Source: Reichenbachiella agariperforans
Lineage (GTDB): Bacteria > Bacteroidota > Bacteroidia > Cytophagales > Cyclobacteriaceae
Reading direction: 5' to 3'
Length of the DNA stretch: 64,000 bases
NCBI RefSeq assembly: GCF_900142205.1
Contig: NZ_FRAA01000005.1
Span: 124,001 to 188,000, forward strand
A program made the translations under genes and the position numbers. Under the pieces are notes generated by a model that was not told the DNA's origin, did not search any database, and saw only the letters and a program-made list of their open reading frames with translations. Positions 18,819-48,460 of this stretch are shown one piece after another (the stretch's first letter is position 1; every line of letters begins with the position of its first letter).

Positions 18819-19894
18819 TACTTGTTAGAAAGTAGCTATTTGAAAAATCAATACCTAGGTCATCCTACAAAACTAACCCATGACGGCTCTAAAACTGAGA
18901 ACTATCATGCAATGAAAGGGGGCTGATCAACCAGAATCTTGAAACTCTAAATGATCAAAACCTGAATTCGATTTCAACTTTCATTAAACCCTTGTCGGAA
19001 ATGCATCAATCATACTTTGTCTTCAAGCCAGATAGACCATACCTCCGATAGATAAACACCCCCTCTTTTTTCATTGTCAATGAAAGAAGCTAAAAGGCTA
19101 GAAACCTATAAACGCGCTACCGCTCAAACAGTATAATTTTCAAACCCCTTGAATAAAGTATATAGAGCATGATTCATTTTTAATCGAACTCAGGTTAAAA
19201 GGTAGATGAGCATGAGACATAAGCACAAAGTACATTAAACCTCGTTAGGTTGTAGCGTTTTGATATATATCTAAAACATTTTAGATATATGTCTTATTAA
19301 GTTTAGATATATATCATTTTATATTTAGATATATATCTTATCAAGTTTAGATATATGCCATTTTATATTTAGATATATATCTTTTTGTTGTAAGATGCTG
19401 TGGAGTCATACAGCATCACCTTACATCTATACCCTCTTGTGCCCAATTACTAACCTGAGTTAGATGCTAAATAACAGTTGCCTTGAAGGTCAAGGCTATC
19501 TTAGCAACCTGATTTCGATTATTAATTTGGTTAAAAAAGGAGGATAAATAGATAAAACCATTATTCATTTTTACGTTTAATCATATGATATTCAAATACT
19601 TAAACTAACAACATAGTTCTATCCATTACTAAAACTACCTATATATTCTATCTAATAGATGAATTCTGTATTGAATTTGATCAATCGGTCAAAAAACATT
19701 TGATTGGCAATAAACCCAAATTCAAAAAGTAAAAAGAAACTTCATCAAGAGCTAGACCGACTTCATTCTAGCGATCCAATGACCATAAAGTTTGAACATA
19801 TTTTTTCTTTCCCTCTGCAAATTATCGTAATATTACGCAATCGGTTGTTTGACTACCAGTCGATGTATCAACGCTGTGCCTAAAAGCCAAAATC
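18819..19894. other. Long divergent intergenic region, HTCS / GH2 lipoprotein gene
   Basis: This 1076-base gap must contain promoters for the HTCS (minus) and the GH2 gene (plus). It holds a six-core 22-bp periodic array (19262-19381). Right after it is a stem-loop with GATGCTGT at 19394-19401 and ACAGCATC at 19410-19417, extended by TGTAA/TTACA with a bulge. A short inverted repeat follows, GCCTTGA at 19480-19486 and TCAAGGC at 19490-19496. The rest is A/T-rich with no coding signal that I can see. No clear TAnnTTTG promoter box stands out. Confidence 0.6.
19262..19381. repeat. Six-core 22-bp periodic palindrome array (AT-rich)
   Basis: The 10-bp core GATATATATC or a one- to two-base variant starts at 19262, 19284, 19306, 19328, 19350 and 19372, exactly 22 bases apart. 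Variants are GATATATGTC at 19284 and GATATATGCC at 19350. The 12-base spacers alternate between a TTATYAAGTTTA form and ATTTTATATTTA, giving a 44-bp higher-order unit. The first core is followed by TAAAA, so it forms an inverted pair with the second. It lies 440-560 bases upstream of the HTCS start and about 510 before the GH2 start. Confidence 0.93.
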
Positions 19895-22645
19895 ATGACT
19901 ATGAAGACGAAAAAAGACAAAGCCTCCTGGTATCCACTGCTAGTGATCACTCTCCTGCTATCATCTCTATGGAGCTGCCAACCCTCCCCTCAGTCTCCAC
20001 CACGAGAGCGAATCTCCATCAATGACAATTGGAGATTCTACAAATACGAAAACATAGAGAAGACGGATAACCTCATCTACGATGTACGCCCTGAGATCAC
20101 TGACACCAATGACGACAAACAGGCTGACTCTAAACCAACAGAAGCCGTCGAGGTAGAAGCCACCCAAGAAACGCTCAAAGCGTGGATCATGCCAACAGGC
20201 AATCGCTTCATCAAAGACCCCACGAAACACTACACCAGACCAAAAGGCAATCCCGGAAAAGACTTTCCCTTCGTTCAGAGTGACTTTGACGATCAAGATT
20301 GGCAAGCCGTGGAGCTACCTCATGACTGGGCCATCGAAGAGCCCTTCTACGCAGGGTGGGACACTCCCGTAGGTGGTGGTATGGGACGACTCCCTAGTCC
20401 AGGCGTAGCATGGTACCGCCGAACCCTCGACATCTCTACTGCCGACCAAGGCAAATCCATCTTCTTGGATATAGATGGTGCCATGTCCTACGCCATGGTC
20501 TGGATCAACGGCCAACTGGCAGGTGGCTGGCCCTATGGGTACTCCTCATGGAGACTGGACTTGACTCCCTACCTCCACTACGGCGGACCGAACCAACTCG
20601 CGATACGCATCGACAACCCCGCACACTCCTCACGGTGGTATCCTGGTGGTGGCATCTACCGCAATGTATGGCTCGTCAAAACAGAGCCTATCCACATCGC
20701 ACAGTGGGGTACCAGCATCCGAACCAAAGACGTATCTGCATCCCAAGCGACCATTCTCCTAGACGTGACGATTGACCATGATGGGAATGAAAACCAAAAC
20801 ATAGCTATTCAGACAGACATCTTTGTACTCAACGAAGATGGGTCGATTGGAGACAAAACTGTCGCGGCATTCGCCAAAAAAGCAATCAGCATGACTGCTC
20901 AAAACAGCAGTACCATCCAATCGACACTGACGCTCGACAACCCTCGACTATGGGGACCACCACCTACCCAATCCCCCAACCGATACGTAGCGATCACTAC
21001 CCTCACCAGCGGGGGACAAACCATCGATGAGTACCGCACACCATTTGGGATACGGGCCATTTCCTACGATGCAGACAAGGGCTTCTTCGTCAATGGCGAA
21101 AAAGTCTACCTCAAAGGTGTGAACCAACACCACGACCTTGGAGCTTTGGGAGCGGCTTTCAATGCCCGTGCGGCAGAGCGACAGCTCGAAATGCTCAAAG
21201 AACTAGGCTGCAATGCCATTCGTATGGCGCACAATCCTCCTGCTCCCGAACTACTGGAGATGACCGATCGCATGGGTTTCTTGGTCATCGATGAGATGTA
21301 CGATTGCTGGGCGCGAAAAAAGACCCCGCATGATTTTCACTTGATCTTCCCAGAATGGCACGAGCAAGACCTCCGCGCACTGGTGCGACGTGACCGCAAC
21401 CACCCCTCTATCATCCTATGGAGTACGGGCAATGAAGTCGGTGAGCAATACACAGGAGAAGAAGGGGCAAAAATTGCCATGCGCTTACGAGAAATCGTCA
21501 ATGAGGAAGACCCCACACGCCCTACTTCCGCGTCGATGAACTATGCCAAGCCCGGCATGCCACTGCCAGAAACTATGGAAGTCCTCAACCTCAACTACCA
21601 AGGTGAAGGCATCCGAAATGCCCCTGCCTATGCCCACCTCAAAGGCATCAACACTTCGCCGCTTTACCCTCGCTTTCACCAAGCCTTCCCAGACAAAGTC
21701 ATCATCAGCAGCGAAAACGCCGCTGCACTCAGCAGCCGTGGCACCTACCTCTTCCCTGTCAATGAAGGCATCAGCGCCCCTATCAGCGACGGTCTAGGTG
21801 GTGACCCAAAAACTGGCTATGTTAGTTCGTATGAGCTGTACACGGCAGACTTTGGTTCATCGGCGGATAAGGTGTTTGCTACTATCGATCAGCACCCCTA
21901 TGTGGCAGGTGGATTCGTCTGGAGCGGATGGGACTATCTGGGAGAACCTACACCCTACTACCTCTCACGTAGCTCGTATTTTGGACTGATTGATCTTGCA
22001 GGATTCAAAAAAGACCGGTTCTACCTCTACCAGTCTCGATGGAGACCCGAACTACCGATGGCGCATATCCTACCCCACTGGAACTGGTCAGATCGCTTGG
22101 GCAAAATCACCCCCGTGCATGTCTTTACTTCGGGAGACGAAGCAGAGCTCTTCCTCAACGGAGAATCTCTCGGACGAAAAAAGAAAGGAGCATACGAATA
22201 CCGTCTGCGCTGGGATGATGTCCTCTACGAGCCAGGCGAACTCAAAGTCATCGCCTACAGGGATGGGAAAGAGTGGGCTGAGGAGACGATCAAAACCACA
22301 GACTCACCGACTCAACTGACGCTCACAACAGACAGACAAAGCATCCTAGGCGATGGCAAAGACTTGGCGTTTGTCACAGTAGCGGTCACCGACCAAAACG
22401 GGCTCACAGTCCCCAATGCCATGAACGACATCACCTTCTCTATAGAGGGGCCTGGAGAGATAGTCGCTACGGACAACGGCGACCCGACGAGCTTGGTAGC
22501 TTTCCCATCCCTAGAACGCAAAGCCTTCAACGGAGTAGCACTAGCAATTGTACAACCCAACAAAGGGCAAGCTGGGACGATTACGATCAAAGCAGTATCT
22601 TCTGGTTTGAAAAACGCAGAGGTCACGATTGAAGTCATTCAATAA
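19895..22645 (+). CDS. GH2 family glycosidase, lipoprotein (beta-galactosidase-like)
   Basis: The 916-residue protein has a lipoprotein signal (lipobox WSC near residue 28). A long polar linker follows, then the GH2 jelly-roll (about 110-270, PHDWAIEEPF and GGIYRNVWL), an Ig-like domain, and a TIM barrel. Glu514 in LWSTGNEVGEQ fits the acid/base and Glu607 in IISSENAAAL the nucleophile. C-terminal Ig-like and invasin-like beta domains (about 720-916) complete it. The layout matches Bacteroidota GH2 enzymes with DUF4982-type tails rather than LacZ. It is transcribed away from the HTCS, 20 bases before the esterase-deacetylase gene. Substrate is not resolved. Confidence 0.88.
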   Translation: MTMKTKKDKASWYPLLVITLLLSSLWSCQPSPQSPPRERISINDNWRFYKYENIEKTDNLIYDVRPEITDTNDDKQADSKPTEAVEVEATQETLKAWIMPTGNRFIKDPTKHYTRPKGNPGKDFPFVQSDFDDQDWQAVELPHDWAIEEPFYAGWDTPVGGGMGRLPSPGVAWYRRTLDISTADQGKSIFLDIDGAMSYAMVWINGQLAGGWPYGYSSWRLDLTPYLHYGGPNQLAIRIDNPAHSSRWYPGGGIYRNVWLVKTEPIHIAQWGTSIRTKDVSASQATILLDVTIDHDGNENQNIAIQTDIFVLNEDGSIGDKTVAAFAKKAISMTAQNSSTIQSTLTLDNPRLWGPPPTQSPNRYVAITTLTSGGQTIDEYRTPFGIRAISYDADKGFFVNGEKVYLKGVNQHHDLGALGAAFNARAAERQLEMLKELGCNAIRMAHNPPAPELLEMTDRMGFLVIDEMYDCWARKKTPHDFHLIFPEWHEQDLRALVRRDRNHPSIILWSTGNEVGEQYTGEEGAKIAMRLREIVNEEDPTRPTSASMNYAKPGMPLPETMEVLNLNYQGEGIRNAPAYAHLKGINTSPLYPRFHQAFPDKVIISSENAAALSSRGTYLFPVNEGISAPISDGLGGDPKTGYVSSYELYTADFGSSADKVFATIDQHPYVAGGFVWSGWDYLGEPTPYYLSRSSYFGLIDLAGFKKDRFYLYQSRWRPELPMAHILPHWNWSDRLGKITPVHVFTSGDEAELFLNGESLGRKKKGAYEYRLRWDDVLYEPGELKVIAYRDGKEWAEETIKTTDSPTQLTLTTDRQSILGDGKDLAFVTVAVTDQNGLTVPNAMNDITFSIEGPGEIVATDNGDPTSLVAFPSLERKAFNGVALAIVQPNKGQAGTITIKAVSSGLKNAEVTIEVIQ

Positions 22646-22665
22646 TTATCAATTTCAAAAGCATC

Positions 22666-25332
22666 ATGATGAAAAAGCATTTTATTCTAAGTCTCCTATT
22701 ACTATTTATACTATTTGGGGTATCCCAAGCGGAGATTCGTCTACCCAAACTCGTGAGCAATGGCATGGTACTCCAGCGCGATACGCCCCTCAAAATCTGG
22801 GGATGGGCAGACCCTAGCGAAGACATCACCGTCCGATTCAAGGGTAAGAAATATACCACTACCACCAGTGCTACAGGAGAATGGTCCGTCACGATGCGCG
22901 CAACCAAAGCAGGTGGTCCCTACACCATGCAAATCCAAGGAAAAGACGACTCCATCACACTCTCCAACCTCCTCGTAGGAGATGTATGGATGTGTGCAGG
23001 ACAATCCAACATGGTGCACTACCTCGGCATACATCAGCAACGATACCGACAGGAGATCGCGGAAGCTAACTACCCCGAAATCCGTCAATTCCTCGTCCCT
23101 ACCAACCCTCAGTTGCAGGGCACAGCGACGGATATTCCACAAGGAGAATGGAAAGAAGCCAATCCCGAAAATGTATTAAAATTCTCTGTGGTGGCCTACT
23201 TCTTTGCCAAGAATCTTTACGATCAGTACCATGTACCTATCGGTCTGATCAACGCCAGTGTGGGCGGTACTCCGGTTGAAGCATGGATCAGCGAAGAAGG
23301 GTTCAAGTCCTTCCCCTCCATCACCAAGACGCTCACCCAAAACAAAGACACAGCCTACGTCAATCAGAAAAATCGTATCGCACAAAAATACCGAGCAGCA
23401 GCCCCTCCACAACCACAGGACGATGGGCTCACCGCCTCTACACCATGGTATGACCTTAGCTACAAGCCCACCCATTGGCACAACATCAACATCCCCGGCT
23501 ACTGGGAAGACCAAGGCATCCGCAACCTAGACGGTGCGGTATGGTACCGTCGAGAGATCGATATCCCTGCCTCGATGACAGGCGTAGCGACCAAAATATT
23601 CATGGGCAGAATCATCGATGCGGATCAGGTCTACATCAATGGTACCCAAGTAGGTGGCAAGACCTACAAATACCCTCAACGCATCTACGACATTCCTGAG
23701 GGACTACTAAAGACGGGCAAAAACCTCATCACGATCCGAGTCGTGAACTATGGTGGCAAAGGCGGTTTCGTACCTGACAAGCCCTACTACCTCGCTACCG
23801 AAAACGACACCCTAGACCTCAAAGGCACATGGCAGTACAAAGTCAGTCAGGTGTTTCGTCCAAAACCTCCTCAGCCCTCTGGGGTATCCGCACAGCACCA
23901 GCCCACTGCCCTATACAACGGCATGGTGGCTCCCTTCACCCAGAGCCCTATCAAGGGAATCGTCTGGTACCAAGGAGAAAGCAATGGCGGCAATCCCCAA
24001 GCCTACGAAAAACTCATGGAGACGCTGATCCAAGATTGGAGAACCAAATGGAACGACAGCAACCTGCCCTTCCTCTATGCGCAGCTCCCCGATTACATGG
24101 ATGTAGACTACCTCCCTACCGAGAGCAACTGGGCTGAACTAAGAGAAGCACAGCGACGGGCTCTCGATGTACCCAATACCGCCATGGCTGTCACGCTAGG
24201 CTTAGGCGAATGGAACGACGTACATCCAGACAACAAGAAACCGGTCGGAGACCGTCTCGCACTAGCTGCCAAAGCACTAGCTTATGATAACAAAAAAGTC
24301 GTCTACTCAGGACCGATGTTTCGGTCTGCGTCAGTAGAGGGCAGTCAGGTCACGCTTTCCTTTGATCATGTCGGCAGTGGATTGATCTCTCAGGATGGCG
24401 AAGCGCTGAGGTGGTTTGCACTGGCTGGGGTTGATCAAAACTATGTTTGGGCGGATGCCAAAATAGAAAACAATCAGATCGTCCTGTCTAGCGATGAGAT
24501 CAATCAGCCCATCTATGTCCGCTATGCGTGGCAGGACAACCCTATGGACGTCAACTTCTACAACCAAGAAGGGCTACCTGCCTCCCCCTTCCAGACCCAA
24601 CTGACCGATGCGCTATGGTTTGGCAAGAAAGCCACCGTCGTACTGACCTACGACGATGCACTCAACGTCCACCTCGACAATGCCCTACCCGTACTGGATT
24701 CGCTGGGGCTCAAAGCTACCTTCTACATCTCTGCTGATGCGCCTGGCTTCAAGTACAGAACCTACGAATGGAAGAAAGCTGCGCAAAATGGACACGAACT
24801 GGGCAACCACACCCTCTACCACCCTTGCCTCGGTGGAGACGGACGCGCGTGGGTATCGGATGACAATGACCTCAGAAACTACTCCGTGCCTCAGATGGTT
24901 CGGGAGATCGACATGACCAACCTCATGCTCCAGACGTTAGATGGGAAGTCAAAACGCACCTATGCGTACACCTGTGGTGACAAGGAGACAGGTGAAGGTT
25001 CATTTGTGAAGGAAATAGAAGGAAAGTTCGTGGCGCTACGTGGTGTCCAGTCCGGGCTCAACCACCTCGGCACCCTAGACATGACTGACCTCCGGTGCAA
25101 CTCCATCGTCGATACCCCTGCATCAGATATGATTGCCTGGGCGGAGCAAGCCAAGAAAGAAAATGCCATGCTCATCCTCCTCTTTCATGGGGTCGGTGGA
25201 GAGCATTCGCTCAATGCTGCACTAGCTGATCATAAGGAGTTCCTAGAGTACCTCCAGGCCAATAAAGACGACCTATGGATCACCACTCTAGAAGATGCTG
25301 CAGAGCACATTCTCGAACAACAGAAGAAGTAG
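22666..25332 (+). CDS. Sialate O-acetylesterase-like / NodB polysaccharide deacetylase fusion, secreted
   Basis: The 888-residue protein has a signal peptide ending near SQAE and an SGNH esterase of the sialate O-acetylesterase type, with Ser114 in CAGQSNMV, WYQGES and a C-terminal NDVHP block. A GH2-like jelly-roll insert lies within it (about 265-390, VWYRREIDIP). After about residue 650 comes a NodB deacetylase domain: Asp663-Asp664 in LTYDDA and metal-ligand His715/His719 in GNHTLYHP. Two deacylating activities in one secreted chain suggest removal of acetyl groups from a modified polysaccharide or amino sugar. The fusion is directly visible; the substrate is unknown. It probably shares an operon with the GH2 gene before it. 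Confidence 0.88.
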   Translation: MMKKHFILSLLLLFILFGVSQAEIRLPKLVSNGMVLQRDTPLKIWGWADPSEDITVRFKGKKYTTTTSATGEWSVTMRATKAGGPYTMQIQGKDDSITLSNLLVGDVWMCAGQSNMVHYLGIHQQRYRQEIAEANYPEIRQFLVPTNPQLQGTATDIPQGEWKEANPENVLKFSVVAYFFAKNLYDQYHVPIGLINASVGGTPVEAWISEEGFKSFPSITKTLTQNKDTAYVNQKNRIAQKYRAAAPPQPQDDGLTASTPWYDLSYKPTHWHNINIPGYWEDQGIRNLDGAVWYRREIDIPASMTGVATKIFMGRIIDADQVYINGTQVGGKTYKYPQRIYDIPEGLLKTGKNLITIRVVNYGGKGGFVPDKPYYLATENDTLDLKGTWQYKVSQVFRPKPPQPSGVSAQHQPTALYNGMVAPFTQSPIKGIVWYQGESNGGNPQAYEKLMETLIQDWRTKWNDSNLPFLYAQLPDYMDVDYLPTESNWAELREAQRRALDVPNTAMAVTLGLGEWNDVHPDNKKPVGDRLALAAKALAYDNKKVVYSGPMFRSASVEGSQVTLSFDHVGSGLISQDGEALRWFALAGVDQNYVWADAKIENNQIVLSSDEINQPIYVRYAWQDNPMDVNFYNQEGLPASPFQTQLTDALWFGKKATVVLTYDDALNVHLDNALPVLDSLGLKATFYISADAPGFKYRTYEWKKAAQNGHELGNHTLYHPCLGGDGRAWVSDDNDLRNYSVPQMVREIDMTNLMLQTLDGKSKRTYAYTCGDKETGEGSFVKEIEGKFVALRGVQSGLNHLGTLDMTDLRCNSIVDTPASDMIAWAEQAKKENAMLILLFHGVGGEHSLNAALADHKEFLEYLQANKDDLWITTLEDAAEHILEQQKK

Positions 25333-25391
25333 TGTGAAACTTTTGAGAACCGAGAGGCAAGATATTGAGAGACTAGACGGCTAGAAAATTC

Positions 25392-25418
25392 AAAGCCTCG
25401 GCACGAGACCGAGGCTTT
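25392..25418 (+). terminator. Intrinsic terminator of the GH2/esterase-deacetylase unit
   Basis: The 10-bp stem AAAGCCTCGG (25392-25401) pairs with 25409-25418 around a 7-base loop and ends in TTTTAGTTTAT. It is 60 bases after the deacetylase stop. Confidence 0.88.
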
Positions 25419-25617
25419 TAGTTTATACCTTCCTTCTTAACTAAACCAGTATAAACACTTATCCTCCTAGGAGTGATACAGGTTGGCAACAATATTAATT
25501 TTTCCGTAACAAATGCCAAACATACAACTGTAGAAATGATTAGAGATTGTAATATTTTCAACTAGAACTCAATCTTGAGACAGATTATCTAGAAAATCAT
25601 TCATAAAACCGCCAATA

Positions 25618-25875
25618 TCAATAGTTCATTTTGCACTGAAGGATTTGAACAACATCCCCTTTGATGCGATACACCAGCCGATGTTCAAAATTGATACGCC
25701 GTGACCAGACGTCGTTGAGTTCATAGCACAAGGGCTGTGGATACCCTAGCCCTTCGTAGGGTGTTTCTTTGATGGACAAACACAGTTCATCGATCAGGCG
25801 CTTCATAGACTGATCGGTTTTCTGCCAATGGATATACTCTAACCATGCATGGGACGAAAATTTAAGCAAAGTCAT
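25618..25875 (-). CDS. yoeB: YoeB-family toxin with substituted active site
   Basis: The 85-residue protein aligns by eye over its full length with E. coli YoeB, a ribosome-dependent mRNA endonuclease. Shared blocks include HAWLEYIHWQKTD, ETPYEGLG and WSRRINFEHRLVYR. In the E. coli enzyme Glu46, Arg65 and His83 form the active site. Here the matching positions are Gln47, Arg66 and Asn84, while the terminal Tyr is kept. The codons read CAG and AAC, so this is not a frame artefact. It overlaps the antitoxin stop by four bases (ATGA). It may be weakened or inactive as a nuclease yet still fold and bind YefM. Confidence 0.9.
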   Translation of the reverse strand: MTLLKFSSHAWLEYIHWQKTDQSMKRLIDELCLSIKETPYEGLGYPQPLCYELNDVWSRRINFEHRLVYRIKGDVVQILQCKMNY

Positions 25876-26129
25876 GAGAGCTTTTGGATTGTTTTTTCAA
25901 ATCCCCCTCCATCGTTCATCTCTCCTATTGATTCAAAAATACGCTGTGCATTTCTGGGATTCTTAAGTAAGAAGAAAGTCTCGTGTATGCTATCATAGTC
26001 TGACTTGGATAGTACCACTACATCTTTACCATCCGTACGTGTGACGAGCAGTGGCATACGATGGTTCATTACCCGATCCATAAATGATTTTAGATTTTGC
26101 CGAAAGTTGGTGTAGGTCGTATGTTCCAT
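25872..26129 (-). CDS. yefM: YefM-family antitoxin
   Basis: An 85-residue protein of the Phd/YefM fold: the N-terminal DNA-binding part begins MEHTTYTNFRQNLKSFMDRV and continues with LLVTRTDGKDVVVLSKSDYDSI. The start is set at the ATG at 26129, because the in-frame start at 26171 adds a hydrophobic stretch not found in the family. It normally neutralises YoeB and represses its own operon. Antitoxin-first order and ATGA coupling to the toxin are standard. Confidence 0.92.
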   Translation of the reverse strand: MEHTTYTNFRQNLKSFMDRVMNHRMPLLVTRTDGKDVVVLSKSDYDSIHETFFLLKNPRNAQRIFESIGEMNDGGGFEKTIQKLS

Positions 26130-26200
26130 ATTAAGTGTTTGGAACAAATATAAGTAGTTGTACAGAATCAAGTACCATACAAGACACTGAATTTAAAGCA

Positions 26201-26719
26201 CTACCAAGTCCACCACTCTGCTTTCACTCCGAAATAATGACCCCACCTCTCTTTCCCAACAAGGTCAAGATAAGGAGAATACTGATTGTCACGAGCGGTA
26301 TCATTGTATCTCGCAACTGAATACACGAAACGCAAATGTGGGCGTGACCAAACCGATCGTTGTCCGCGCAGGAATCAGACTCAGCTTCGTCATAGTATAA
26401 CCCATCCATCCTCACCAGGAAACGAGTAGAGTCCGGAAGAATCATTTTCGCTGATCTCTGTATCTGTCGCGTCTCCCATGTGATGATACTCTCCCAGTAG
26501 GGTAATCAGTTTGTTGTCCCCGAGACGGAAATCTTGCTCCACGGTCAACAGCAACCTTTGCCGCAATTCCAAACTAGGCGTTCCCGATTTGATATTCAAA
26601 AAGAAATAAGGTGGTACCGTAGAGGTCGTATCTGATGAGGATACAAAATTCATCGACATTCTAGTTCCTTTGTACTCTAGCCCAAACCCTTGGCCAGAAT
26701 GATCATAAAAGGGATTCAC
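26201..26719 (-). pseudogene. Decayed outer-membrane porin gene (maltoporin/LamB-like)
   Basis: Three consecutive pieces in different frames read as one beta-barrel protein. The first (26719 to about 26395) runs from AVNPFYDHSGQGFGLEY to FPGEDGWV. The second holds GLYYDEAESDSCADNDRFG. The third begins RPHLRFVYSVARYNDTAR and ends GHYFGVKAEWWTW before a TAG at 26201-26203. Arg-Pro followed by alternating barrel residues and a Trp-rich end resemble sugar porins of the LamB kind. The 5' part is missing and an in-frame TAG lies just upstream. At least two frameshifts separate the pieces. The exact family needs a search. Confidence 0.72.
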
Positions 26720-26741
26720 TGCAAGAGACTACAACTGCATA

Positions 26742-29389: not shown

Positions 29390-29394
29390 GCACA

Positions 29395-29477
29395 TACTTT
29401 AGGGGTGCCCACAGATGCTGTGGCTGAGACAATACCCTCAATACCTGATACTGGTAATTCAGTCGAAGGGAAAAGTC
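29395..29477 (+). promoter_or_regulatory. TPP riboswitch (THI element)
   Basis: The leader carries the conserved THI-box pieces in order: AGGGGTGCCC at 29401, GCTGAGACAATACCC at 29423-29437, ACCTGATACTGGTAATTCAG at 29443-29462, and GAAGGGA. The variable P3 stem CCACA/TGTGG (29409-29413 with 29419-29423) is short. It lies 40 bases before thiS and is expected to switch the thi operon off when thiamine pyrophosphate is abundant. The gap to thiS is too short for a separate large terminator, so control of translation is likely. Confidence 0.93.
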
Positions 29478-29517
29478 AGGCACTTCACGTGGCTCCTAAA
29501 GGTAAAACCGATTCAAT

Positions 29518-36441: not shown

Positions 36442-36574
36442 CACAAATAAGTTGAGAACCTGAAATCCAATAATGATAGATAGGTTTTCAACCCTGATCT
36501 TTAAACACATATAAAAAATAATAAGAACGCCCTGTTCAACTATATCTCAAATTCATTTAACATTGCAGTGATTA
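36442..36574. other. Gap before the cobalamin riboswitch
   Basis: GTTGAGAACC (36451-36460) can pair with GGTTTTCAAC (36483-36492), with one G-T wobble and a 22-base loop. This is a possible weak terminator for the glycosyltransferase. TAACATTG at about 36558 is one base off the -7 consensus and is well placed to start the riboswitch leader. Confidence 0.4.
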
Positions 36575-36790
36575 TTGGTTCAGCGAATGATTGCATCATT
36601 GGTTGATTAAAAGGGAATTCGGTTCACTATTACTTCTAAGTAGAACGATATAAAATCCGAAGCTGTCCCCGCAACTGTAGTCCTGAATACTGTCTAATCA
36701 GTATTATATTTTTGATCCACAACACCACTGGTGTGCACAGCACGCTGGGAAGGTCATCAAAAATCAGGAAAGCCAGGAGACCTGCCATTA
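36575..36790 (+). promoter_or_regulatory. Cobalamin riboswitch
   Basis: Conserved elements appear in order: AAGGGAATTCGGTTC at 36610, AATCCGAAGCTGTCCCCGCA followed by ACTGT at 36654-36678, GCTGGGAAGG at 36744-36753, and the B12 box AGCCAGGAGACCTGCC at 36771-36786. It precedes btuB by about 100 bases and should lower expression of the uptake and salvage operon when adenosylcobalamin is bound. Confidence 0.95.
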
Positions 36791-36889
36791 ATCTTAGTAT
36801 TACGGAGCTTTCGGGTGAAAAGTCTTGAGATTCAGAGGGAGTATATTCCCATCTTGTCTACATAGCAGCTCTGTATAAACAAACGAACT

Positions 36890-39934: not shown

Positions 39935-39942
39935 TTTACCCT

Positions 39943-40446: not shown

Positions 40447-40447
40447 A

Positions 40448-41488
40448 ATGAAAAATTACTTCATCGAGAAGCCTAGCCAAACCATACTGGATCAGGTTAA
40501 AAACAAAATAGATCTCAAAACCAAACCCCTCGGTTCGCTGGGTCAATTGGAATCCATCGCAAAGAAAATTTGCCTCATACAACAAACACGCTCACCTAAA
40601 CTCAACCACCCTGCTATGTTGGTCTTTGCGGGAGATCACGGACTCACCGATGAGAACATCAGTGCATTTCCTCAGGAAGTCACGCACCAGATGGTGCTCA
40701 ACTTTCTATCTGGTGGCGCTGCGATCAACGTATTTTGCCAACAAAATCAAATCAACCTCAGCGTAGTAGACGCTGGCGTCAACCATACCTTTGCACATCA
40801 CCCTGATCTAATTGATAGAAAAATAGGCTTTGGCACGGCCAACTCACTACATGAAGAAGCCATGACCGACAAGGAATTTAACCAAGCCATGGCAGCTGGC
40901 GCACAACTCGTCGATAGGAAGTTCACCAAGGGCTGCAACATCATCGGTTTCGGTGAGATGGGAATTGGCAATACATCCGCTTCTAGTCTACTTATGAGTG
41001 CCTTCACAGACTGTAGCCTAGAGGACTGTGTTGGTCGTGGCACAGGAATAGATGATCAAGGACTCCACCACAAAATCGATGTACTCCAAAAAGTCTATGC
41101 GCAACACAGGGCAAAACTCAATGATCCATTGACCTTCTTCCGCTGTGTTGCAGGATTCGAAATGGCCATGATGCTCGGCGCGATGGTACAGGCTGCCGAA
41201 AACAAAATGATCCTGCTCATAGATGGTTTCATTGCCAGTGCGGTGTTCTTGGCAGCTTATCAACAATACCCTAACCTAATGTGCTACGCACTCTTTTGCC
41301 ATCAATCCGACGAACATGGCCACCAATCTCTACTAGACCATCTGGGACAAGAGCCCATACTCAAGATGAACCTAAGACTAGGAGAAGGTACGGGATGCGC
41401 ACTCGCCTACCCTATTATCCAATCTAGCGTAGCTTTCATCAATCAAATGGCTAGTTTTGAGTCAGCATCTATCACCAATAAACCCTAA
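40448..41488 (+). CDS. cobT: Nicotinate-nucleotide dimethylbenzimidazole phosphoribosyltransferase CobT
   Basis: The 346-residue enzyme is started at the ATG at 40448 (KNYFIEKPSQTILDQVKNKI); an upstream in-frame ATG at 40385 lies inside cobU. Family blocks are LVFAGDHGLTDENISAFP, GFGEMGIGNTS and the catalytic-Glu region LRLGEGTGCALAYPI. It makes the alpha-ribazole phosphate for the lower loop. Its stop shares one base with the cobS start. Confidence 0.96.
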   Translation: MKNYFIEKPSQTILDQVKNKIDLKTKPLGSLGQLESIAKKICLIQQTRSPKLNHPAMLVFAGDHGLTDENISAFPQEVTHQMVLNFLSGGAAINVFCQQNQINLSVVDAGVNHTFAHHPDLIDRKIGFGTANSLHEEAMTDKEFNQAMAAGAQLVDRKFTKGCNIIGFGEMGIGNTSASSLLMSAFTDCSLEDCVGRGTGIDDQGLHHKIDVLQKVYAQHRAKLNDPLTFFRCVAGFEMAMMLGAMVQAAENKMILLIDGFIASAVFLAAYQQYPNLMCYALFCHQSDEHGHQSLLDHLGQEPILKMNLRLGEGTGCALAYPIIQSSVAFINQMASFESASITNKP

Positions 41489-42261
41489 TGCGCAAAGAAT
41501 TACAGATTTTCCTCACTGCCATCATGTTCTACACCCGGATCCCCTGTCCACGATGGGTGGATCATTCTGCAGATCATCTCAACCAAGCTACACGCTATTT
41601 TCCACTAATAGGATGGGTCGTCGGAGGTGCTAGTGCGCTGGTATTATATGGTGCAGGGCAAGTACTTCCTATCAGTCTAGCCGTTTTGATCTCCATGGTG
41701 GTTAGTATTTTAATCACAGGTGGCTTCCATGAAGATGGCTTTGCGGATGTCTGTGATGGTTTCGGAGGAGGATGGACCAAAGAAAAAATACTGACGATCA
41801 TGAAAGACAGTGTACTCGGTGCCTATGGGGTCATTGGGATCATGCTCGTCTTGATGATCAAGTTCTTTTCGCTCAGCGAACTCGTACAGCAGGTTGACCT
41901 TTGGACTGCATGTACGGTACTATTCGTCGCACATAGCCTTAGTCGCACGGTATCGGTATGGATGATATTCACCGATAGCTATGTCCGCGAAAATGAGGAC
42001 GCCAAAGCCAAGCCCATCGCCAAAAAGATGTCCAAAGCGACCTTTCTAGTTGCCAATCTATTTGGGTTCATCCCTTTGGTTTTGATTCCTAAAATAGAAA
42101 TATTGCTTTTGATCCCCGTACTACTCATAGTCAAGTGGTACTTTTCTCGCTACTTCAAAAAATGGATAGGTGGCTATACTGGCGACTGTCTAGGTTCAGT
42201 GCAGCAAGTCGCCGAACTCATCATTTACCTTACGATACTCATACTATGGAAATATATCTAG
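41488..42261 (+). CDS. cobS: Adenosylcobinamide-GDP ribazoletransferase CobS
   Basis: The 257-residue membrane protein has about six hydrophobic segments. The start reads TAIMFYTRIPCP, and the CobS signature GGFHEDGFADVCDGFGGGW with Asp clusters is present, as is GGYTGDCLGSVQQVAEL. It joins adenosylcobinamide-GDP and alpha-ribazole in the inner membrane. It overlaps cobC by 16 bases. Confidence 0.96.
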   Translation: MRKELQIFLTAIMFYTRIPCPRWVDHSADHLNQATRYFPLIGWVVGGASALVLYGAGQVLPISLAVLISMVVSILITGGFHEDGFADVCDGFGGGWTKEKILTIMKDSVLGAYGVIGIMLVLMIKFFSLSELVQQVDLWTACTVLFVAHSLSRTVSVWMIFTDSYVRENEDAKAKPIAKKMSKATFLVANLFGFIPLVLIPKIEILLLIPVLLIVKWYFSRYFKKWIGGYTGDCLGSVQQVAELIIYLTILILWKYI

Positions 42262-42806
42262 TCCGCCACACCACCCCTGACATAGCCAAAGGCATCTGCT
42301 ATGGCCAGTCCAACATCCCACTCGCCAAAGGCTACCAGCAGGAACTCGCACGTACTGCCACGCTACTCCCAGAACATATCGATGTATGCTACACCAGTCC
42401 GCTACTACGCTGCAAGGCTCTCGCCACCGAACTATCAGACGAGATACACGTAGACAAACGCCTCTTGGAGCTCAACTTTGGTACATGGGAACTCTCAGCA
42501 TGGGACGACATCCCCGCAGACCAGCTCACTCCATGGATGGCAGACTACATCAACACACCTCCACCCAAAGGAGAAACCTATCAGCAGCTCGCAGATCGTA
42601 TCAGTACCTTCTGGACAGAACTAGTAGCAACATCCGCAGACACCGTACTGATCGTGTCTCATGCTGGAGCGATGCGCGCCATTCTCGCCCAACTGCTACA
42701 TCTCGATCTAACCGATAGTTTCAAACTACAACTAGACTATGGTAGCGTCACCAAAATAAAAGCCGATGGAGACCAAACCACACTCTGCTACACCAATAGA
42801 ACATGA
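42246..42806 (+). CDS. cobC: Alpha-ribazole phosphatase CobC
   Basis: The 186-residue histidine phosphatase starts at the ATG at 42246 inside the cobS end. It has the phospho-His motif YLVRHTTPD at the N-terminus, ELNFGTWELSAWDD, and the second catalytic His in VSHAGAMRAILA. It removes phosphate in the last stages of the lower-loop pathway. It overlaps the next gene by four bases (ATGA). Confidence 0.94.
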   Translation: MEIYLVRHTTPDIAKGICYGQSNIPLAKGYQQELARTATLLPEHIDVCYTSPLLRCKALATELSDEIHVDKRLLELNFGTWELSAWDDIPADQLTPWMADYINTPPPKGETYQQLADRISTFWTELVATSADTVLIVSHAGAMRAILAQLLHLDLTDSFKLQLDYGSVTKIKADGDQTTLCYTNRT

Positions 42807-43519
42807 ACAAAATCCCGATTACAGTCAGCTGGAGTGGTGGCAAAGACTCAGCCTACATGCTATACCTCCTACTACAGGACGACCGCTATCAGGTCGTAGA
42901 ACTACACACGGCACTATCTGCTACGAACGATCGAGTATCCATGCACGGCGTGTCCAAAACACTCATGGAGGCACAGGCAGAGGCCATCGGACTGCCCATC
43001 ACCTTTCTCTCCATCCCTGCTGATCAAACCAACGACAGCTACGAAGAGGCACTAGCTACCTACTACACCAATCTCAAACGCCGCAACATCCATCATGTCG
43101 CCTCCGGTGATATATTTTTGGAGGATCTTCAAACCTACAGAGAAGGCATCTTTGCCAGTCACGGTATCACAGGCATCTACCCCCTATGGAAGAAAGATAC
43201 CACCACTTTGATCCAGGACATATTGGGTGTGGGATTCCAAACGATACTCTGCTGCACCAAGCAATCGCTATTCAGCACTTCTATCTGTGGTCAGGTACTG
43301 ACACCCGAGCTCATACAAACCTTCCCGTCCAGTGTAGACCCATGCGGGGAAAACGGAGAGTTCCACTCCTATGTATTCGACGGCCCTATCTTTCATTATC
43401 CAATAGACTATATCAAAAAAAACATCACCCAAAAAAGCTACCAACACCAACTCGACAATGGTGACACACTAGAAACCCTATTCGAATTCGCAGATTTAGA
43501 CTTGGCCTCCCACAGTTAA
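42803..43519 (+). CDS. DUF71/Dph6-like ATP-dependent amidoligase of the B12 operon
   Basis: The 238-residue PP-loop protein has the ATP-binding motif VSWSGGKDSAYML at its start, MHGVSKTLMEAQAEAIGLP, HHVASGDIFLEDLQTYRE and DPCGENGEFHSYVFDGPIF. This is the DUF71/COG2102 (diphthine-ammonia ligase) family. Eukaryotic and archaeal members make diphthamide, which bacteria lack. A bacterial subgroup beside cobalamin genes has been predicted to act in B12 salvage, plausibly as an amidase or amide ligase on corrinoid side chains. Translational overlap with cobC places this copy in that group. Confidence 0.87.
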   Translation: MNKIPITVSWSGGKDSAYMLYLLLQDDRYQVVELHTALSATNDRVSMHGVSKTLMEAQAEAIGLPITFLSIPADQTNDSYEEALATYYTNLKRRNIHHVASGDIFLEDLQTYREGIFASHGITGIYPLWKKDTTTLIQDILGVGFQTILCCTKQSLFSTSICGQVLTPELIQTFPSSVDPCGENGEFHSYVFDGPIFHYPIDYIKKNITQKSYQHQLDNGDTLETLFEFADLDLASHS

Positions 43520-43683
43520 TCACAGCCAATGGTTACGAACACATCATGATGAAGTAACTTATGTTCCTTCCCAAGACAGGTTACCCCTCTTTATACAGTA
43601 CAAATAATTTATTCTATATCTCGAAGGATTCGTTGTGCTATTTTGCTTCTGATTGCTTTCTTTTGGCCTCAAAAAAAGAGTAA

Positions 43684-44181
43684 ATGAACATGAAAATGAG
43701 AATATACCACCGCTACTTGGGATTCTTCCTTGCAGGAATCATGGCGGTGTATGCCCTAAGTGGAATCATATTAATATTTAGGGATACAGACACTTTCCAC
43801 ATTGTCGAAACCGTAGAAAAGGTTTTGCCAGAAGGTACGGAACTAGAAAACCTAGGCAAAGAACTAGGCATCAAGCGTTTTCGCATCGACCGTGTCGAAT
43901 CAGGTGTGGCGTATTTCAGAGACGGCACTTATAATATAGAGAGCCGTACGGCGGTCTATACTAAAAAGGAAATGCCCTATTTGCTGGACAAGATGACACA
44001 TCTGCACAAAGCCACTAGCAGTCGACCCCTCGCCTTCCTCAATATCTTTTTCGGCGTATCACTGTTCTTTTTTGTCATGTCTTCCTTCTGGATGTTTGTA
44101 CCAGGAACGAGCGTATTCAAAAAAGGACTCTACTTTGCATTGGCAGGTTTAGCCTTGACGCTACTGGTACTCTTCGTCTAG
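43684..44181 (+). CDS. Small PepSY-associated-type membrane protein
   Basis: The 165-residue protein has an N-terminal membrane segment (about 10-30, YHRYLGFFLAGIMAVYALSG). A soluble part of about 80 residues follows, then two close membrane segments (about 113-135 and 143-163). The YHRYLGFF start and LHKATSSRPLAFLNIFFGVS resemble shortened PepSY-TM proteins linked to iron reductases, but the PepSY domain itself is small. No ligand residues beyond single His are clear. It lies 164 bases after the cobalamin operon and could be a separate unit. Confidence 0.68.
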   Translation: MNMKMRIYHRYLGFFLAGIMAVYALSGIILIFRDTDTFHIVETVEKVLPEGTELENLGKELGIKRFRIDRVESGVAYFRDGTYNIESRTAVYTKKEMPYLLDKMTHLHKATSSRPLAFLNIFFGVSLFFFVMSSFWMFVPGTSVFKKGLYFALAGLALTLLVLFV

Positions 44182-44212
44182 TTAACCTTCAGAAAGGTTT
44201 AAACTGGTCGGT

Positions 44213-44249
44213 GTATGGACTACACCTAGGACGGAGATCTAGTCCATAC
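44213..44249. terminator. Convergent inverted repeat, likely bidirectional terminator
   Basis: GTATGGACTA at 44213-44222 pairs perfectly with 44240-44249. The right arm overlaps the stop codon of the response regulator at 44239-44241. A second small stem AACCTT/AAGGTT lies just before it (about 44184-44199). Neither has a long T-run. Confidence 0.6.
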
Positions 44250-44859
44250 TAATGGTCTTCGTCGATACAGCAAAATTGATCAATTCGCCTAACGTCGTTA
44301 GAGACAGCTTTTCCTTGATGTTCTGTTTGTGTTTTTCCACGGTAGCAGTGGCGATATTGAGGATATCAGCGACTTCCTTACTCATTTTTCCAGAAGCCAG
44401 CGAAAACAAAATTTCCCTTTCTCTGCGAGTAAGACTTTCTAATAATTCTACATTCTTCTCATTGTAGCGCACGTTTTGACTCTCTTTCTCAGCATTGAGC
44501 ATGGCAAGATTGATCGTCAGCTTCAGCTGATTAACATTGTAAGGTTTTAACAGATAAGCAAAAGGCAATGAGCCCTCAGCCTTGCGAACGGTACTCTCGT
44601 CAGTATATGCCGTTAGATAAACTATAGGTACTTTGTAACTAGTACATAGCTCCTGCACTAGATCTATCCCATCTATGTCAGCATTGAGATTAATATCCGA
44701 AATAATTAAGTCAAAAGTCTGTGAGACGAAAAACTTACGCGCCTCATCTGGCCCCAATGCTATCGTCACCGAAGCATAATCTCCCTTCTCCAAGGTGGCC
44801 TTAATTTCCTTGGCGATTATCATCACATCTTCTATAAGTAGTATACTAAGCCTCTCCAT
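44239..44859 (-). CDS. Response regulator, receiver plus LuxR HTH
   Basis: The 206-residue protein has a receiver with phosphoacceptor Asp in LIISDINLNADIDG, switch Thr in VYLTAYTD and Lys in AYLLKPYN. A NarL/LuxR HTH is visible in LTRREREILFSLASGKMSKE and ATATVEKHKQNIKEKL. It overlaps the propeller kinase gene by 14 bases, so the two form a cognate pair. Confidence 0.93.
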   Translation of the reverse strand: MERLSILLIEDVMIIAKEIKATLEKGDYASVTIALGPDEARKFFVSQTFDLIISDINLNADIDGIDLVQELCTSYKVPIVYLTAYTDESTVRKAEGSLPFAYLLKPYNVNQLKLTINLAMLNAEKESQNVRYNEKNVELLESLTRREREILFSLASGKMSKEVADILNIATATVEKHKQNIKEKLSLTTLGELINFAVSTKTISMD

Positions 44860-47800
44860 AGCTCACCGGTATTTTAATTACATTCTTTGCCCCATCATGA
44901 CTATCAACGGTCATCTCGCCTTTCAATTGTTTCACCATATCCTTTACTAGATCAAGCCCTATTGAACCCTGTTTGATATCCTCCTGACGGTAGCCCTTGC
45001 CATTGTCTGCTATCACGAGCACCAGCCAGTCACCTCCTACCTTGCAACTGATCGACAGGCGGTTGGTGTCCTCATAGTTGTCAAAGGCATATTTGCTCAC
45101 ATTGGTCAACAGCTCATTGATCAATAAGCCATAAAAGGTAATATTGAAATTAGTCACCTCCGCAGGTTCCAGATCATAGATTGTTTCAAACGTCGGGCTT
45201 TCGTCCGAAGCAATCAGCCGCAGTACATTCTCACATATATCCCGAGTAAACTTATCCACATGAATATGTTCACTCTCAGAATCCATAATGTTTTCCAAAT
45301 AGGAAATCGTCAAGATACGGTTCCTCGCTACCTGTAACGTGTGAATGGCATCTAAATTATCCAAATGCAAAGCCTGTAGACTCAGTAGACTGGATATAAT
45401 TTGTAGATTATTTTTGACGCGGTGCTTCATCTCCCGCATCAAAAACTGAATACTCTCCTGTCTCGATTCGGATACTTCGAGTGCCTGCCGCAACTCCCCT
45501 GTACTCTCCTTGACCATTAGTTCTAAACGTTCTTTGTTTCGCCGATAGGTGTGAGATTTATAAAGGTAGAACCCTACTGCTAACAGTAAAGTCGCCAAAA
45601 CAGCTGTCAACTTGAACCAAAACTGATCATACCACGGAGGGATAACTGTGAGCGATACCTGACGCCCCATCTCACTCCAAGCCCCATTATCGTTGGTTGC
45701 TTTGATGTGAAAAGTATAATCTCCTGGAGACAAATTCGTATAGGTAATACTTTGGCTTTTCGTGACGGGCCTCCATTCCTTGTCAAATCCATCCATCCAA
45801 TAACTGTAGTTCACTTTGGATGGGTTCAGAAAGTTAATCGCAGCATACTTGAAAGTAAGTACATTTTCGTCGCTACCGAAGGCGTAGCGATCTTGGTAGA
45901 TCGCATTGGTAGGCAAAGGCTGATTGAACAATTCGATGGATTCCAGATGTACCTTGGACTCGTAAGGATTGATACGAATATCCTCTGGATGAAAGACATT
46001 GATCCCATCGACTCCTCCAAAGTAAAAATTACCATACGCATCTTGGTAAGCAGCCTTACCGTTGAACTCATCGTTTTGAAGGCCATCCTTGTGAGAGTAG
46101 TGAACAAAGCGATCTGTCGAAGGATCGAGTACTGCGATCCCCTTGTTGGTTCCCATCCATACTCTATCCTGGGCATCTATCAGTACACTGTACACAAAAT
46201 CATTGGGAAATCCCTCTTGTCGATAATAGCGATGAACATCCTCAGTTTTCAGGTTCAACATGGTCAGCCCGGTGCTTGTACCCAACCAAATATTGCCATT
46301 TCCATCTTCGTTGATCGCAAAGATTCTATCACTATTGATTGCTTCGGGATGCGTCCCTTCGGTGTAGTGATGTACTACTCCCTCTCCTAACTCCGCTATC
46401 CGGTATGCTCCTTGATCAGACCCTATCCATAAGTTGTCCTGACTATCTACAAAGCTAATTCGGGCACGATTGAGCGCTTGCCCGTCTACCAAATAGCCCT
46501 CAAATTTCTTTTGGGTCAAATCATAGATATACATCCCGCTGGACCAAGTAGACACCAGTAGCTTCTCTGACGTGAGTGGCCGTATATCGATGACGGATTT
46601 ATCGTTGGGAATATCTCCTGTCACTTCAGCCTTTTCGAAACGGTCCTGTGCAGCGTTGTAATGCAACAAACCTGTCCCATCAAAGCCTCCACACCATACA
46701 TCACCGTTATGATCACGCTCCAGCGCATAGATGAGCGACTTAGGAAAATCGTCCTTGTAATGTTTGAACTCCCTCGTGAGGTAATCATATTTGAGGACGT
46801 TGTACGTACTACCAAGCCACAGGGCAGAGTCCTCCCCCTCAGCAGGCAAAAACTGAAAAGTACTCAGCTTGGTATCTCTCGTATACCCCTCCATCTCCAA
46901 ACTAATAGACGTAAATTTCTTCTGGTACTTGTTGTAGTGGTGGAGCCCTTCACCCGCCGTACCCATCCATACGTTCCCTTTGCCATCCCCATAGATCGTC
47001 ATGATCTCAACGGGAAAATACACCTTACCCGATTGATCCTTAGAGACGCATTGGGTCACAGATTTTGAGACAGGATCATAGATCACTAACCCCTCATTGG
47101 TTCCCAGCCATAGTTCACCGTTTTCGTAGGGGTAAATACAGTTGATCGACTGATCAGGCACAATCAAATCTGCCACTCCACTGGACAGATCTAGCGTATA
47201 TAGTCCCTGTTCTGTACCCACATAGAGCTGCTCCTGATGCAGTAGCAGGGCATTGTGCGCAGATGGATCTAGACGCTGCTGCCCTACCACGGACAGTGTT
47301 TTCAAATCTAACACCAACAAACCTCCATTCAATGTCGCTAGTACGGCCTGACCTTCACTCATTCGTACTAGAGCAGTGACATGGTTCTCCGAGCCTTGTT
47401 CTTCGTGAACAACTTTCTTGAGCGTCTTGATACTCCTATCGTAGATATGAAAGGCATTGGATGACGAAAAAAGAAGATATTGATCGTTTAGGCGGAAGAC
47501 CTTATAGGAGATTACATTAGATAGTTCGTCAAAGGGACGGATGAAGGTTTCGCTACGCAGATCAAGCGCAAATATCCCTTTGCTATTGGAGGCAATCCAG
47601 AGCGTATCATCCACGATCAGTAGACCTCTGTTATGATCATCCGGGATACTCATACTGTCGAGCGGATTGCCTGAAAAAACCTTCATTTTCAGTCCGTTGA
47701 ACCGGTGCAGACCGTCCTCAGTAGAGAACCAAAGATAGTCCATATCGTCCTGCACGACATCCTGCACATTGAGCTGGGTCATCCCCTCTTCCTGTCCGAT

Positions 47801-47893
47801 GTAGTTGATCTGTAGTGTATCTAGCTGCGCCCCAGCGACCGCTCCTAGACACGTGCCTAACATACATATCCAAGTAACAACAAATACTTTCAA
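44846..47893 (-). CDS. Propeller sensor histidine kinase (Reg_prop, Y_Y_Y, HisKA_2 type)
   Basis: The 1015-residue kinase begins at a TTG with a signal peptide (ends VAGAQ). Periplasmic propeller blades occupy about 25-690 (for example WFSTEDGLHRFNG and WMGTAGEGLHHYN), and a Y_Y_Y domain follows (about 690-760). A single membrane segment (about 770-790) leads to a HisKA_2/HWE-like dimerisation part with His824 in MKHRVKNNLQIISSLL. The HATPase carries ADNGKGYRQEDIKQGSIGLDLV. Unlike the PUL regulator it is not fused to a receiver; the partner overlaps its stop. The propeller suggests it senses a carbohydrate or other periplasmic ligand, but no enzyme genes are nearby. Confidence 0.92.
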   Translation of the reverse strand: MKVFVVTWICMLGTCLGAVAGAQLDTLQINYIGQEEGMTQLNVQDVVQDDMDYLWFSTEDGLHRFNGLKMKVFSGNPLDSMSIPDDHNRGLLIVDDTLWIASNSKGIFALDLRSETFIRPFDELSNVISYKVFRLNDQYLLFSSSNAFHIYDRSIKTLKKVVHEEQGSENHVTALVRMSEGQAVLATLNGGLLVLDLKTLSVVGQQRLDPSAHNALLLHQEQLYVGTEQGLYTLDLSSGVADLIVPDQSINCIYPYENGELWLGTNEGLVIYDPVSKSVTQCVSKDQSGKVYFPVEIMTIYGDGKGNVWMGTAGEGLHHYNKYQKKFTSISLEMEGYTRDTKLSTFQFLPAEGEDSALWLGSTYNVLKYDYLTREFKHYKDDFPKSLIYALERDHNGDVWCGGFDGTGLLHYNAAQDRFEKAEVTGDIPNDKSVIDIRPLTSEKLLVSTWSSGMYIYDLTQKKFEGYLVDGQALNRARISFVDSQDNLWIGSDQGAYRIAELGEGVVHHYTEGTHPEAINSDRIFAINEDGNGNIWLGTSTGLTMLNLKTEDVHRYYRQEGFPNDFVYSVLIDAQDRVWMGTNKGIAVLDPSTDRFVHYSHKDGLQNDEFNGKAAYQDAYGNFYFGGVDGINVFHPEDIRINPYESKVHLESIELFNQPLPTNAIYQDRYAFGSDENVLTFKYAAINFLNPSKVNYSYWMDGFDKEWRPVTKSQSITYTNLSPGDYTFHIKATNDNGAWSEMGRQVSLTVIPPWYDQFWFKLTAVLATLLLAVGFYLYKSHTYRRNKERLELMVKESTGELRQALEVSESRQESIQFLMREMKHRVKNNLQIISSLLSLQALHLDNLDAIHTLQVARNRILTISYLENIMDSESEHIHVDKFTRDICENVLRLIASDESPTFETIYDLEPAEVTNFNITFYGLLINELLTNVSKYAFDNYEDTNRLSISCKVGGDWLVLVIADNGKGYRQEDIKQGSIGLDLVKDMVKQLKGEMTVDSHDGAKNVIKIPVSYGEA

Positions 47894-48460
47894 TCCTCTT
47901 TCTTAATGTTGAATGGTAGGTTAAGGCTAGGTTAGAGCCTAAATCTAATCAGACCGCACTACTGTACCAAATAAATGAGAATTTGCTCCACACAAAGACA
48001 TGTCAGAGGAGGCGTTTCTACTTGGGTAAAAGCTATTCTTTGAAAAAGGTTCTAGCACCGATTAAAAAAGAGTGTACGACAAACACCCCAAGCTTGCGCA
48101 ACCACAGACCTCAGCTTGCGCAACCAAAGACCTTAGCTTGCACAACAAAGGAGTGGAGGTTGCGCAACCGAATAGCCAACCTTGCGCAACCTTTGGGTGA
48201 AGCTACTAATCGACCTAAAAATCTAATCGGTTTTCTGTATCTAGACAACCCCATAGACGAGTGGATCAAAGGCTAAAATGGAGGCAATCTTAATGTAGTA
48301 ACATTGACTGAATAAGAGGACTATGAGATTAAATAACGCTCCTACAATCAAGACTACCCCCTACTTTAGAACTGAACTATTTGTAAAGCATACTACCTCA
48401 CAACTCATTAAAACAAACGATTACTCAACCCCTTATCGATAACACCACTATGTTTCGAAT
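47894..48460. other. 567-base gap between the propeller kinase and antiporter genes
   Basis: This holds the kinase promoter (left end) and the 22-bp palindrome array at 48091-48191. No other clear gene was seen. A 97-codon open frame (47983-48276, plus) crosses the array, but its composition in the repeats is forced by the repeat and it has no recognisable fold, so it is not called. Confidence 0.6.
48091..48191. repeat. Five-core 22-bp periodic palindrome array (GC-rich core)
   Basis: The palindrome TTGCGCAA, usually in the setting AGCTTGCGCAACC, starts at 48094, 48116, 48138, 48160 and 48182, each exactly 22 bases apart. The copy at 48138 is TTGCACAA. Copy four reads GGTTGCGCAACC, a perfect 12-bp palindrome. 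Spacers of 14 bases differ. A decayed sixth copy may begin at 48201 (AGCTA). The array lies 200-300 bases upstream of the propeller-kinase start. Confidence 0.93.

Follow-up and report, generated by a model that had tools for sequence, protein, structure and literature searches.

Introduction

In the BOX elements of Streptococcus pneumoniae, inner repeats in varying number stand between two end modules. The inner repeat is about 45 bp long, forms a single family and probably acts as an RNA structure. Plasmid iterons and the ends of Tn7 and Mu, with their 22-bp transposase sites, are rows of ~22-bp protein sites on DNA; they are not known to be palindromic rows dispersed over a chromosome. Marks of REP/BIME units are stem-loops with a free loop, a linked RAYT (Y1_Tnp) gene and a GTAG or CGTC tag at the foot of the palindrome. 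REP/BIME sequences are dispersed, extragenic palindromic units that are often clustered (PMC3733652). In the Bacteroidota, the BrickBuilt MITE of Porphyromonas gingivalis is a tandem minisatellite with a leader and a tail ending in inverted repeats; it is always intergenic, is present in 19 copies in ATCC 33277 and varies in repeat number between strains (PMC4596501). The repeat unit measures 23 nt; searching the main text of that paper for the stem 'palindrom' gives 0 occurrences (PMC4596501).

The arrays studied here were found in a window of Reichenbachiella agariperforans DNA, by which is meant the whole stretch of 64,000 nucleotides that was analysed. Like REP/BIME, arrays of this type are palindromic, dispersed and extragenic (19/79 lie in called frames). 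Unlike REP/BIME, they keep a 22-bp (or 21-bp) step even between families whose cores are unrelated, the symmetry of their units appears to extend to the dyad, asymmetric units often have the same orientation within an array, and a Y1_Tnp gene nearby seems to be the exception. The AT element of the window is a good fit to the BrickBuilt plan, having a leader and a tail around a variable-number repeat in 6/7 copies with 4 to 8 units, whereas the GC family as a whole lacks this plan, and the array unit is 22 bp instead of 23 nt, is palindromic and has a spacing common to several cores. BrickBuilt shares its terminal inverted repeats with an insertion sequence of its genome; next to the AT element there are inverted repeats AACCTGARTTCGATT. 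End modules and a variable inner repeat are also found in BOX, from which the arrays differ in that the BOX inner repeat measures ~45 bp and belongs to one family. The iterons and the Tn7 and Mu ends likewise contain rows of ~22-bp sites, but the rows described here are palindromic and chromosome-dispersed. Among the literature matches listed, none described a class of arrays in which several cores have a single fixed step.

Results

Two palindrome arrays with one step

Two arrays with different cores and the same 22-bp step had been described in the earlier note, and both are real (Table 1). Tandem Repeats Finder (TRF) reported a 22-bp period at 19257-19383 with a score of 128 and at 48091-48150 with a score of 92, and the repeat finder extended the GC array to five copies with the spacing 22,22,22,22. 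There are six units with TTTAGATATATATC-like cores in the AT array and five with TTGCGCAA-like cores in the GC array, and both arrays are intergenic with respect to the called genes. The AT element begins AAGGTAG, which contains the GTAG of the REP/BIME tag. Ahead of its array, the half-site AACCT of the unit-zero palindrome resembles the half-site of a third family, AARYCYGCGCRGRYTT, which is described below.

Table 1. Positions in the window of the two arrays, the parts of their elements and the neighbouring kinase genes.
Feature	Position	Strand	Basis and remarks
Hybrid two-component regulator, 1348 aa (Reg_prop, Y_Y_Y, HisKA, HATPase_c, Response_reg, HTH_18); neighbour outside the element	14772..18818	-	domain matches
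MITE-like repeat, ~240 bp, terminal inverted repeats AACCTGARTTCGATT; adjoins the AT element	18959..19198	.	BLAST, alignment
Leader of the dispersed AT element, start AAGGTAGATGAGCAT	19199..19256	+	alignment, BLAST; common to 6/7 copies
Palindrome AACCTCGTTAGGTT, unit zero, in 22-bp phase ahead of the AT array	19238..19251	.	
AT-core palindrome array, six 22-bp units, core AGATATATATCT	19257..19386	.	TRF, repeat finder
Tail of the AT element, inverted repeat GTAAGATGCTGT...ACAGCATCACCTTAC	19387..19443	+	alignment, BLAST; common to 6/7 copies
Propeller sensor kinase, 1015 aa (Reg_prop, Y_Y_Y, HisKA_2, HATPase_c); neighbour outside the element	44846..47893	-	domain matches
Degenerate unit GTGTACGACAAACAC, in phase ahead of the GC array	48069..48090	.	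repeat-finder copy, 66% identity
GC-core palindrome array, five units, 22-bp steps, core TTGCGCAA	48094..48189	.	TRF, repeat finder

Array families and their distribution

In the genome to which the window belongs (G000; 5.03 Mb, 21 contigs), pairs of TTGCGCAA at step 22 with <=2 mismatches gave 47 matches per strand against 2+2 for the reversed control, and the AT pair with <=3 mismatches gave 26+8 matches against 0+0. With the window included, the GC array occupies 15 places in this genome and the AT array 7. The third family, AARYCYGCGCRGRYTT, has 79 matches per strand here, in at least 16 places, and 41 in the congener G001, the reversed control giving 0; 0 matches were obtained in the six other congeners. 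AT and AARYCYGCGCRGRYTT arrays alike are present in G000 and G001 and missing from G002 and G004-G007. A GTAAG/CTTAC change is common to 17 units of the GC/GTAAG arrays. The array class is real, present in many copies and located mostly between genes.

The GC triple was confined to G000, G001 and G003, all of one genus, among 98 genomes (own and relatives), and the step-22 TTGCGCAA pair was absent from 5/7 congeners. Of 395 genomes of the phylum, 42 have two exact copies of TTGCGCAA separated by 2-32 bases. None of the 41 besides that of R. agariperforans had such a pair at step 22, on which ground a phylum-wide GC array is rejected, and four of them (G291, G394, G120 and G374) had step-21 exact pairs. 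A step of 15 is seen repeatedly among the pairs of other phylum genomes, for example G130, G299, G264, G122 and G375; since 15 is a multiple of 3, coding repeats are possible there.

A scan for the GC pair in a genome collection, possibly one without the window's own genome or a very near one, gave 91 stretches, and among the 80 listed 45 were from Bacteroidota and 35 from outside. The latter look like chance. A single Paraprevotella assembly accounts for 17 of the 45 and a single Bacteroidaceae assembly for 13. Step-22 arrays are present in some Bacteroidales assemblies. No exact match to the three array patterns was found in viral contigs.

A 22-bp ruler

With the gap left free at 2-32 bases, 14 exact TTGCGCAA pairs were found in the R. 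agariperforans genome, which equals the number of exact pairs at step 22, so that no exact pair stands at another step. Steps between consecutive cores, taken without a lag limit, were 22, 44 or 66 in 56/56 cases for the GC family in the genus, and multiples of 22 in 22/24 cases for the AT family, the exceptions being 45 and 67. In other Bacteroidota, 70/72 core steps were multiples of 22, at 39 loci each of which had been chosen for one 22-bp pair.

A sequence-blind scan was made over 1.6 Mb picked irrespective of arrays (800 kb of the R. agariperforans genome, 400 kb of G001 and 200 kb from both G002 and G006). Rows of four palindromes (>=16/20 pairs) numbered 5 at lag 22 and 24 over 38 other lags. 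All 5 rows at lag 22 have like cores; 3 of the 24 belong to the 42-bp arrays of loci L130 and L133, and the rest, judged by eye, consist of unlike palindromes. When three like palindromes in a row were sought at lags 11-80, 30 rows were obtained: 9 at lag 22, 15 at 21/42/44/66 and 6 at other lags. Shuffling the same sequence once yielded 4 such rows, against the 6 real rows outside lags 21/22/42/44/66. The nine rows at lag 22, 6 of them in the R. agariperforans genome and 3 in G001, lie in stop-to-stop stretches of <=351 nt; the 200-kb samples of G002 and G006 had none. Of the rows at lag 44, 5/6 belong to loci that also hold a lag-22 array, as does the single lag-66 row, and two of the lag-21/42 rows sit in long open frames (L137, L177).

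Diverse and alternating cores

The step-22 arrays from the blind scans have core types AACCTGCGCAGGTT, AACACGTGTT, GTAAGCTTAC and GTTGCGCAAC; AAACCCGCGCGGGTTT is a further type at this step, and step-21 arrays with TCCCGGGA and TCCTGCATGA cores occur in G001. In two Paraprevotella loci AGATATATATCT-like arrays at 21 bp lie alongside the TTGCGCAA arrays at 22 bp. The 42-bp arrays of the R. agariperforans genome (L130:5199-5366 and L133:15383-15592) have AAAAATGCATTTTT apparently alternating with a CTTCCGC/GCGGAAG palindrome, and they seem to be two cores at 21-bp half-steps. At L281:15028 in G007, palindromes TTCCTCCGCGGCGGAG recur at 41 bp.

Alternation at exactly 22 bp is seen at L352:2168-2290 in G001, where AAAAAGATACGTATCTTTTT, AAACCCGCGCTGGTTT, AAAAGATACGTATCTTTT and AAACCCACGCGGGTTT follow one another, AAAGATACGTATCTTT alternating with AAACCCGCGCTGGTTT-type cores. 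Cores of the AT type and of the third family alternate here within one array, which is the clearest single case and was selected by eye from the pair listing, outside the three-unit scan. Arrays with unrelated cores at step 22, together with two cores alternating in one array, uphold the suggestion of the earlier note that the class is defined by palindromy and spacing and not by sequence.

Such diversity bears on whether the arrays are plain minisatellites made by replication slippage and palindromic by chance. Direct copying is visible, for left halves two units apart agree at 6.62/8 positions, against 5.71 between arrays. Slippage keeps the period within a family, however, and gives neither one period to unrelated cores nor the alternation of two cores, and this explanation is very improbable.

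Two-fold symmetry and hairpins

Several arrays (L112, L126 and L153) fold into long hairpins. In G003, the five-unit GC array at L112:1490-1620 folds with 33 unbroken pairs, and its 32-bp perfect inverted repeat looks like the product of an inverted duplication. The arrays could then be structured RNA or single-stranded DNA acting as hairpins, that is terminators, attenuators or mRNA stabilisers, and their placement agrees with this in part: of the 54 arrays that have a called gene on both sides, 20 are in convergent gaps, for which the background by bp is 0.14 to 0.34 in the five sets. Against it, the spacers pair weakly. Spacer complementarity within arrays gave P = 0.044 for 13 arrays of the genus, P = 0.005 for 17 Paraprevotella arrays, P of ~1 for the RUI569 set, and P = 0.30 and 0.15 for two further sets; it is weak or absent. 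Nor is a two-turn step necessary for hairpins, and the Rfam search of the window gave no match at the two arrays. The same search placed two riboswitches elsewhere in the window, Cobalamin (RF00174) at 36559-36803 and TPP (RF00059) at 29391-29488.

Co-variation between the halves of units is the other evidence on this point. In a first count over 17 GC/GTAAG arrays with 86 units, pairs 1-3, 5 and 6 from the dyad co-varied and pairs 7-9 did not; because that count was shuffled over all arrays, related units were counted many times. A stricter recount used distinct units and within-array shuffles, and for the GC family (13 arrays, 54 units, the arrays having originally been found by a palindromic pattern) gave P values for pairs 1-9 of 0.003, 0.02, 0.077, 1.0 (invariant), 0.042, 0.082, 0.21, 0.068 and 0.42. 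Pair 1 without the GTAAG units retained P = 0.018. In the AT family (7 arrays, 26 units), the recount showed co-variation of pairs 1 and 4 (P = 0.029 and 0.026). The halves of the third-family units did not co-vary (73 units, 13 arrays, P = 0.25), only their consensus being symmetric. At half-length 5, co-variation was found in Paraprevotella (P = 0.005) and none in RUI569 (P = 0.058) or in the UBA/other set (P = 0.90).

A hairpin could not include the pair at the dyad, and yet this pair co-varies, which leans towards a two-fold DNA site. Judged from the unit sequences, dyad co-variation moderately favours two-fold sites in double-stranded DNA over hairpins, and with pairs 7-9 not co-varying, a hairpin function of the class is unlikely. 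As a general fold the long hairpin was rejected on spacer complementarity and co-variation; it fits single arrays, some from inverted copying, better than the class.

Copy form and mobility

The AT array is the middle part of its element, and in most copies the element stands beside a MITE-like repeat. Six GC copies have a common left flank. With common flanks in these six and in 6/7 AT copies, the copy number can stem from mobile repeats. The MITE-like repeat of the window is found, whole or in part, in ~20 places of the R. agariperforans genome, and a similar inverted pair encloses a AAACCCGCGCGGGTTT array in G001 (L156).

Comparison between species shows both persistence and change. The array at L042 is kept at the counterpart locus in G003, where the neighbour protein is 88% identical; at the G001 counterpart (neighbour 82%) there is no array and the downstream DNA is different. 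L040 of the R. agariperforans genome and L273 of G003 have common flanks with 3 and 5 strict units, respectively, and the extra 44 bp in L273 contain a spacer plus its inverted copy. Array length changes by whole units.

These observations raise the possibility that the arrays are selfish repeats, the inner part of mobile elements like MITEs, BrickBuilt or BIME whose palindromes are recognised by a transposase (perhaps Y1/RAYT) and which have no host role. The AT arrays within a conserved leader-tail element and the shared flank of the GC copies speak for it. So do the 3/19 Y1_Tnp places in eight congeners with a phased row of palindromes close by, namely L361 (AACACGTGTT at 22), L354 (GACTGCAGTC at 21) and L352, where the array with two cores alternating at 22 lies ~330 bp from an IS200-like Y1_Tnp gene. 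No such array was found near the other 16/19, one of the three cases (L352) is the locus picked by eye, and Y1_Tnp accounts for 1/40 flanking proteins outside the window. Moreover, arrays persist between species at some orthologous loci, and mobility alone leaves a single spacing across unrelated cores unexplained. Selfish repeats are a plausible account to which we give somewhat less than even credence.

At L126:11953-12501 a 182-aa Y1_Tnp gene is 256 bp from the AACACGTGTT array, and the 21-bp GACTGCAGTC array at L354:214 in G005 is near a Y1_Tnp gene.

Kinase neighbours and gene context

Both window arrays lie upstream of a gene for a propeller-type kinase, the distance to the gene start being 443 bp for the AT array and its 1348-aa hybrid gene and 199 bp for the GC array and its 1015-aa gene, which is accompanied by a NarL-type regulator gene. 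The earlier note had pointed to a link on this basis, allowing that it could be chance, and the arrays could accordingly be operators of the neighbouring propeller kinase systems. This did not hold up. Propeller kinases make up 2 of the 44 neighbouring genes of 22 arrays (L045 lies at a contig edge and was left out), both inside the window, with 0 among the other 42; these are enzymes, transporters, helicases and unknowns. Array places within <=3.5 kb of a Reg_prop match numbered 2/41 against 1.09 expected (P = 0.30), counted without the GTAAG places L065 and L074 and with 16 Reg_prop genes taken from the 150/230 candidates scored. By eye, no array was found in the ~800 upstream bases of each orthologue of the 1015-aa kinase in G003 (81%), G002 (64%) and G006 (60%). 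With adjacency at chance level and not kept in orthologues, the operator reading is refuted as a general rule and has next to no credence left, and the kinase setting of the window arrays looks like chance.

The hybrid regulator is adjoined at 9844-14504 in the window by a frame of 519 aa and the gene of a TonB-dependent receptor of 1030 aa. GH2 and esterase genes stand on the opposite side of the regulator, and the set resembles a polysaccharide utilisation locus.

The arrays of the R. agariperforans genome showed no excess in divergent gaps, with 6 convergent, 3 divergent and 11 co-directed. Across five sets, 79 arrays were distributed over 20 convergent, 9 divergent and 25 co-directed gaps, 19 called frames and 6 locus edges. 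Of those in called frames, 14 are in frames of 101-153 aa, which are possibly spurious, and 5, belonging to Paraprevotella and RUI569, are in frames of 209-774 aa. The families listed for the 44 array neighbours include no replication initiator and no Tn7/Mu transposase.

Discussion

The leading reading, which we hold tentatively and at a little under an even chance, is that the arrays are rows of two-fold sites for putative dimeric proteins, set on one face of the helix and spread as dispersed repeats. The class consists of rows of 3 to ~11 short two-fold symmetric sites with their centres almost always exactly 22 bp apart (21 in some families), a step of two turns of the double helix. Each site may be bound by a dimer of a putative DNA-binding protein, and the two-turn step would set these dimers on the same helix face and could allow them to load side by side. 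Different cores would then answer to different proteins or specificities. The rows probably spread within dispersed repeats and appear to grow as pieces of 22 or 44 bp are copied, usually directly but at times inverted. Candidate effects of a bound row are chromosome organisation, a local transcription barrier, or the mere spread of the element. Rows of dimer sites and mobile repeats can both be true, and a purely mobile origin is a close rival.

The common geometry, together with an array that interleaves two unrelated cores, points to one constraint on all of these arrays, the two-turn spacing of two-fold sites, and this constraint predicts dimeric proteins that load on one DNA face. Sequence-based repeat finders would split such arrays into separate minisatellites or miss the diverged ones, and a simple sequence-blind search for such elements in other genomes is now possible. 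BIME, BrickBuilt and BOX might be re-read as cases with or without a two-turn ruler. More broadly, and with considerable doubt, some Bacteroidota chromosomes may carry helically phased palindrome arrays of several interleavable core families, with a separate dimeric protein recognising each core and lining up along one DNA face, as an element that would be defined by its geometry and diverse in its sequence.
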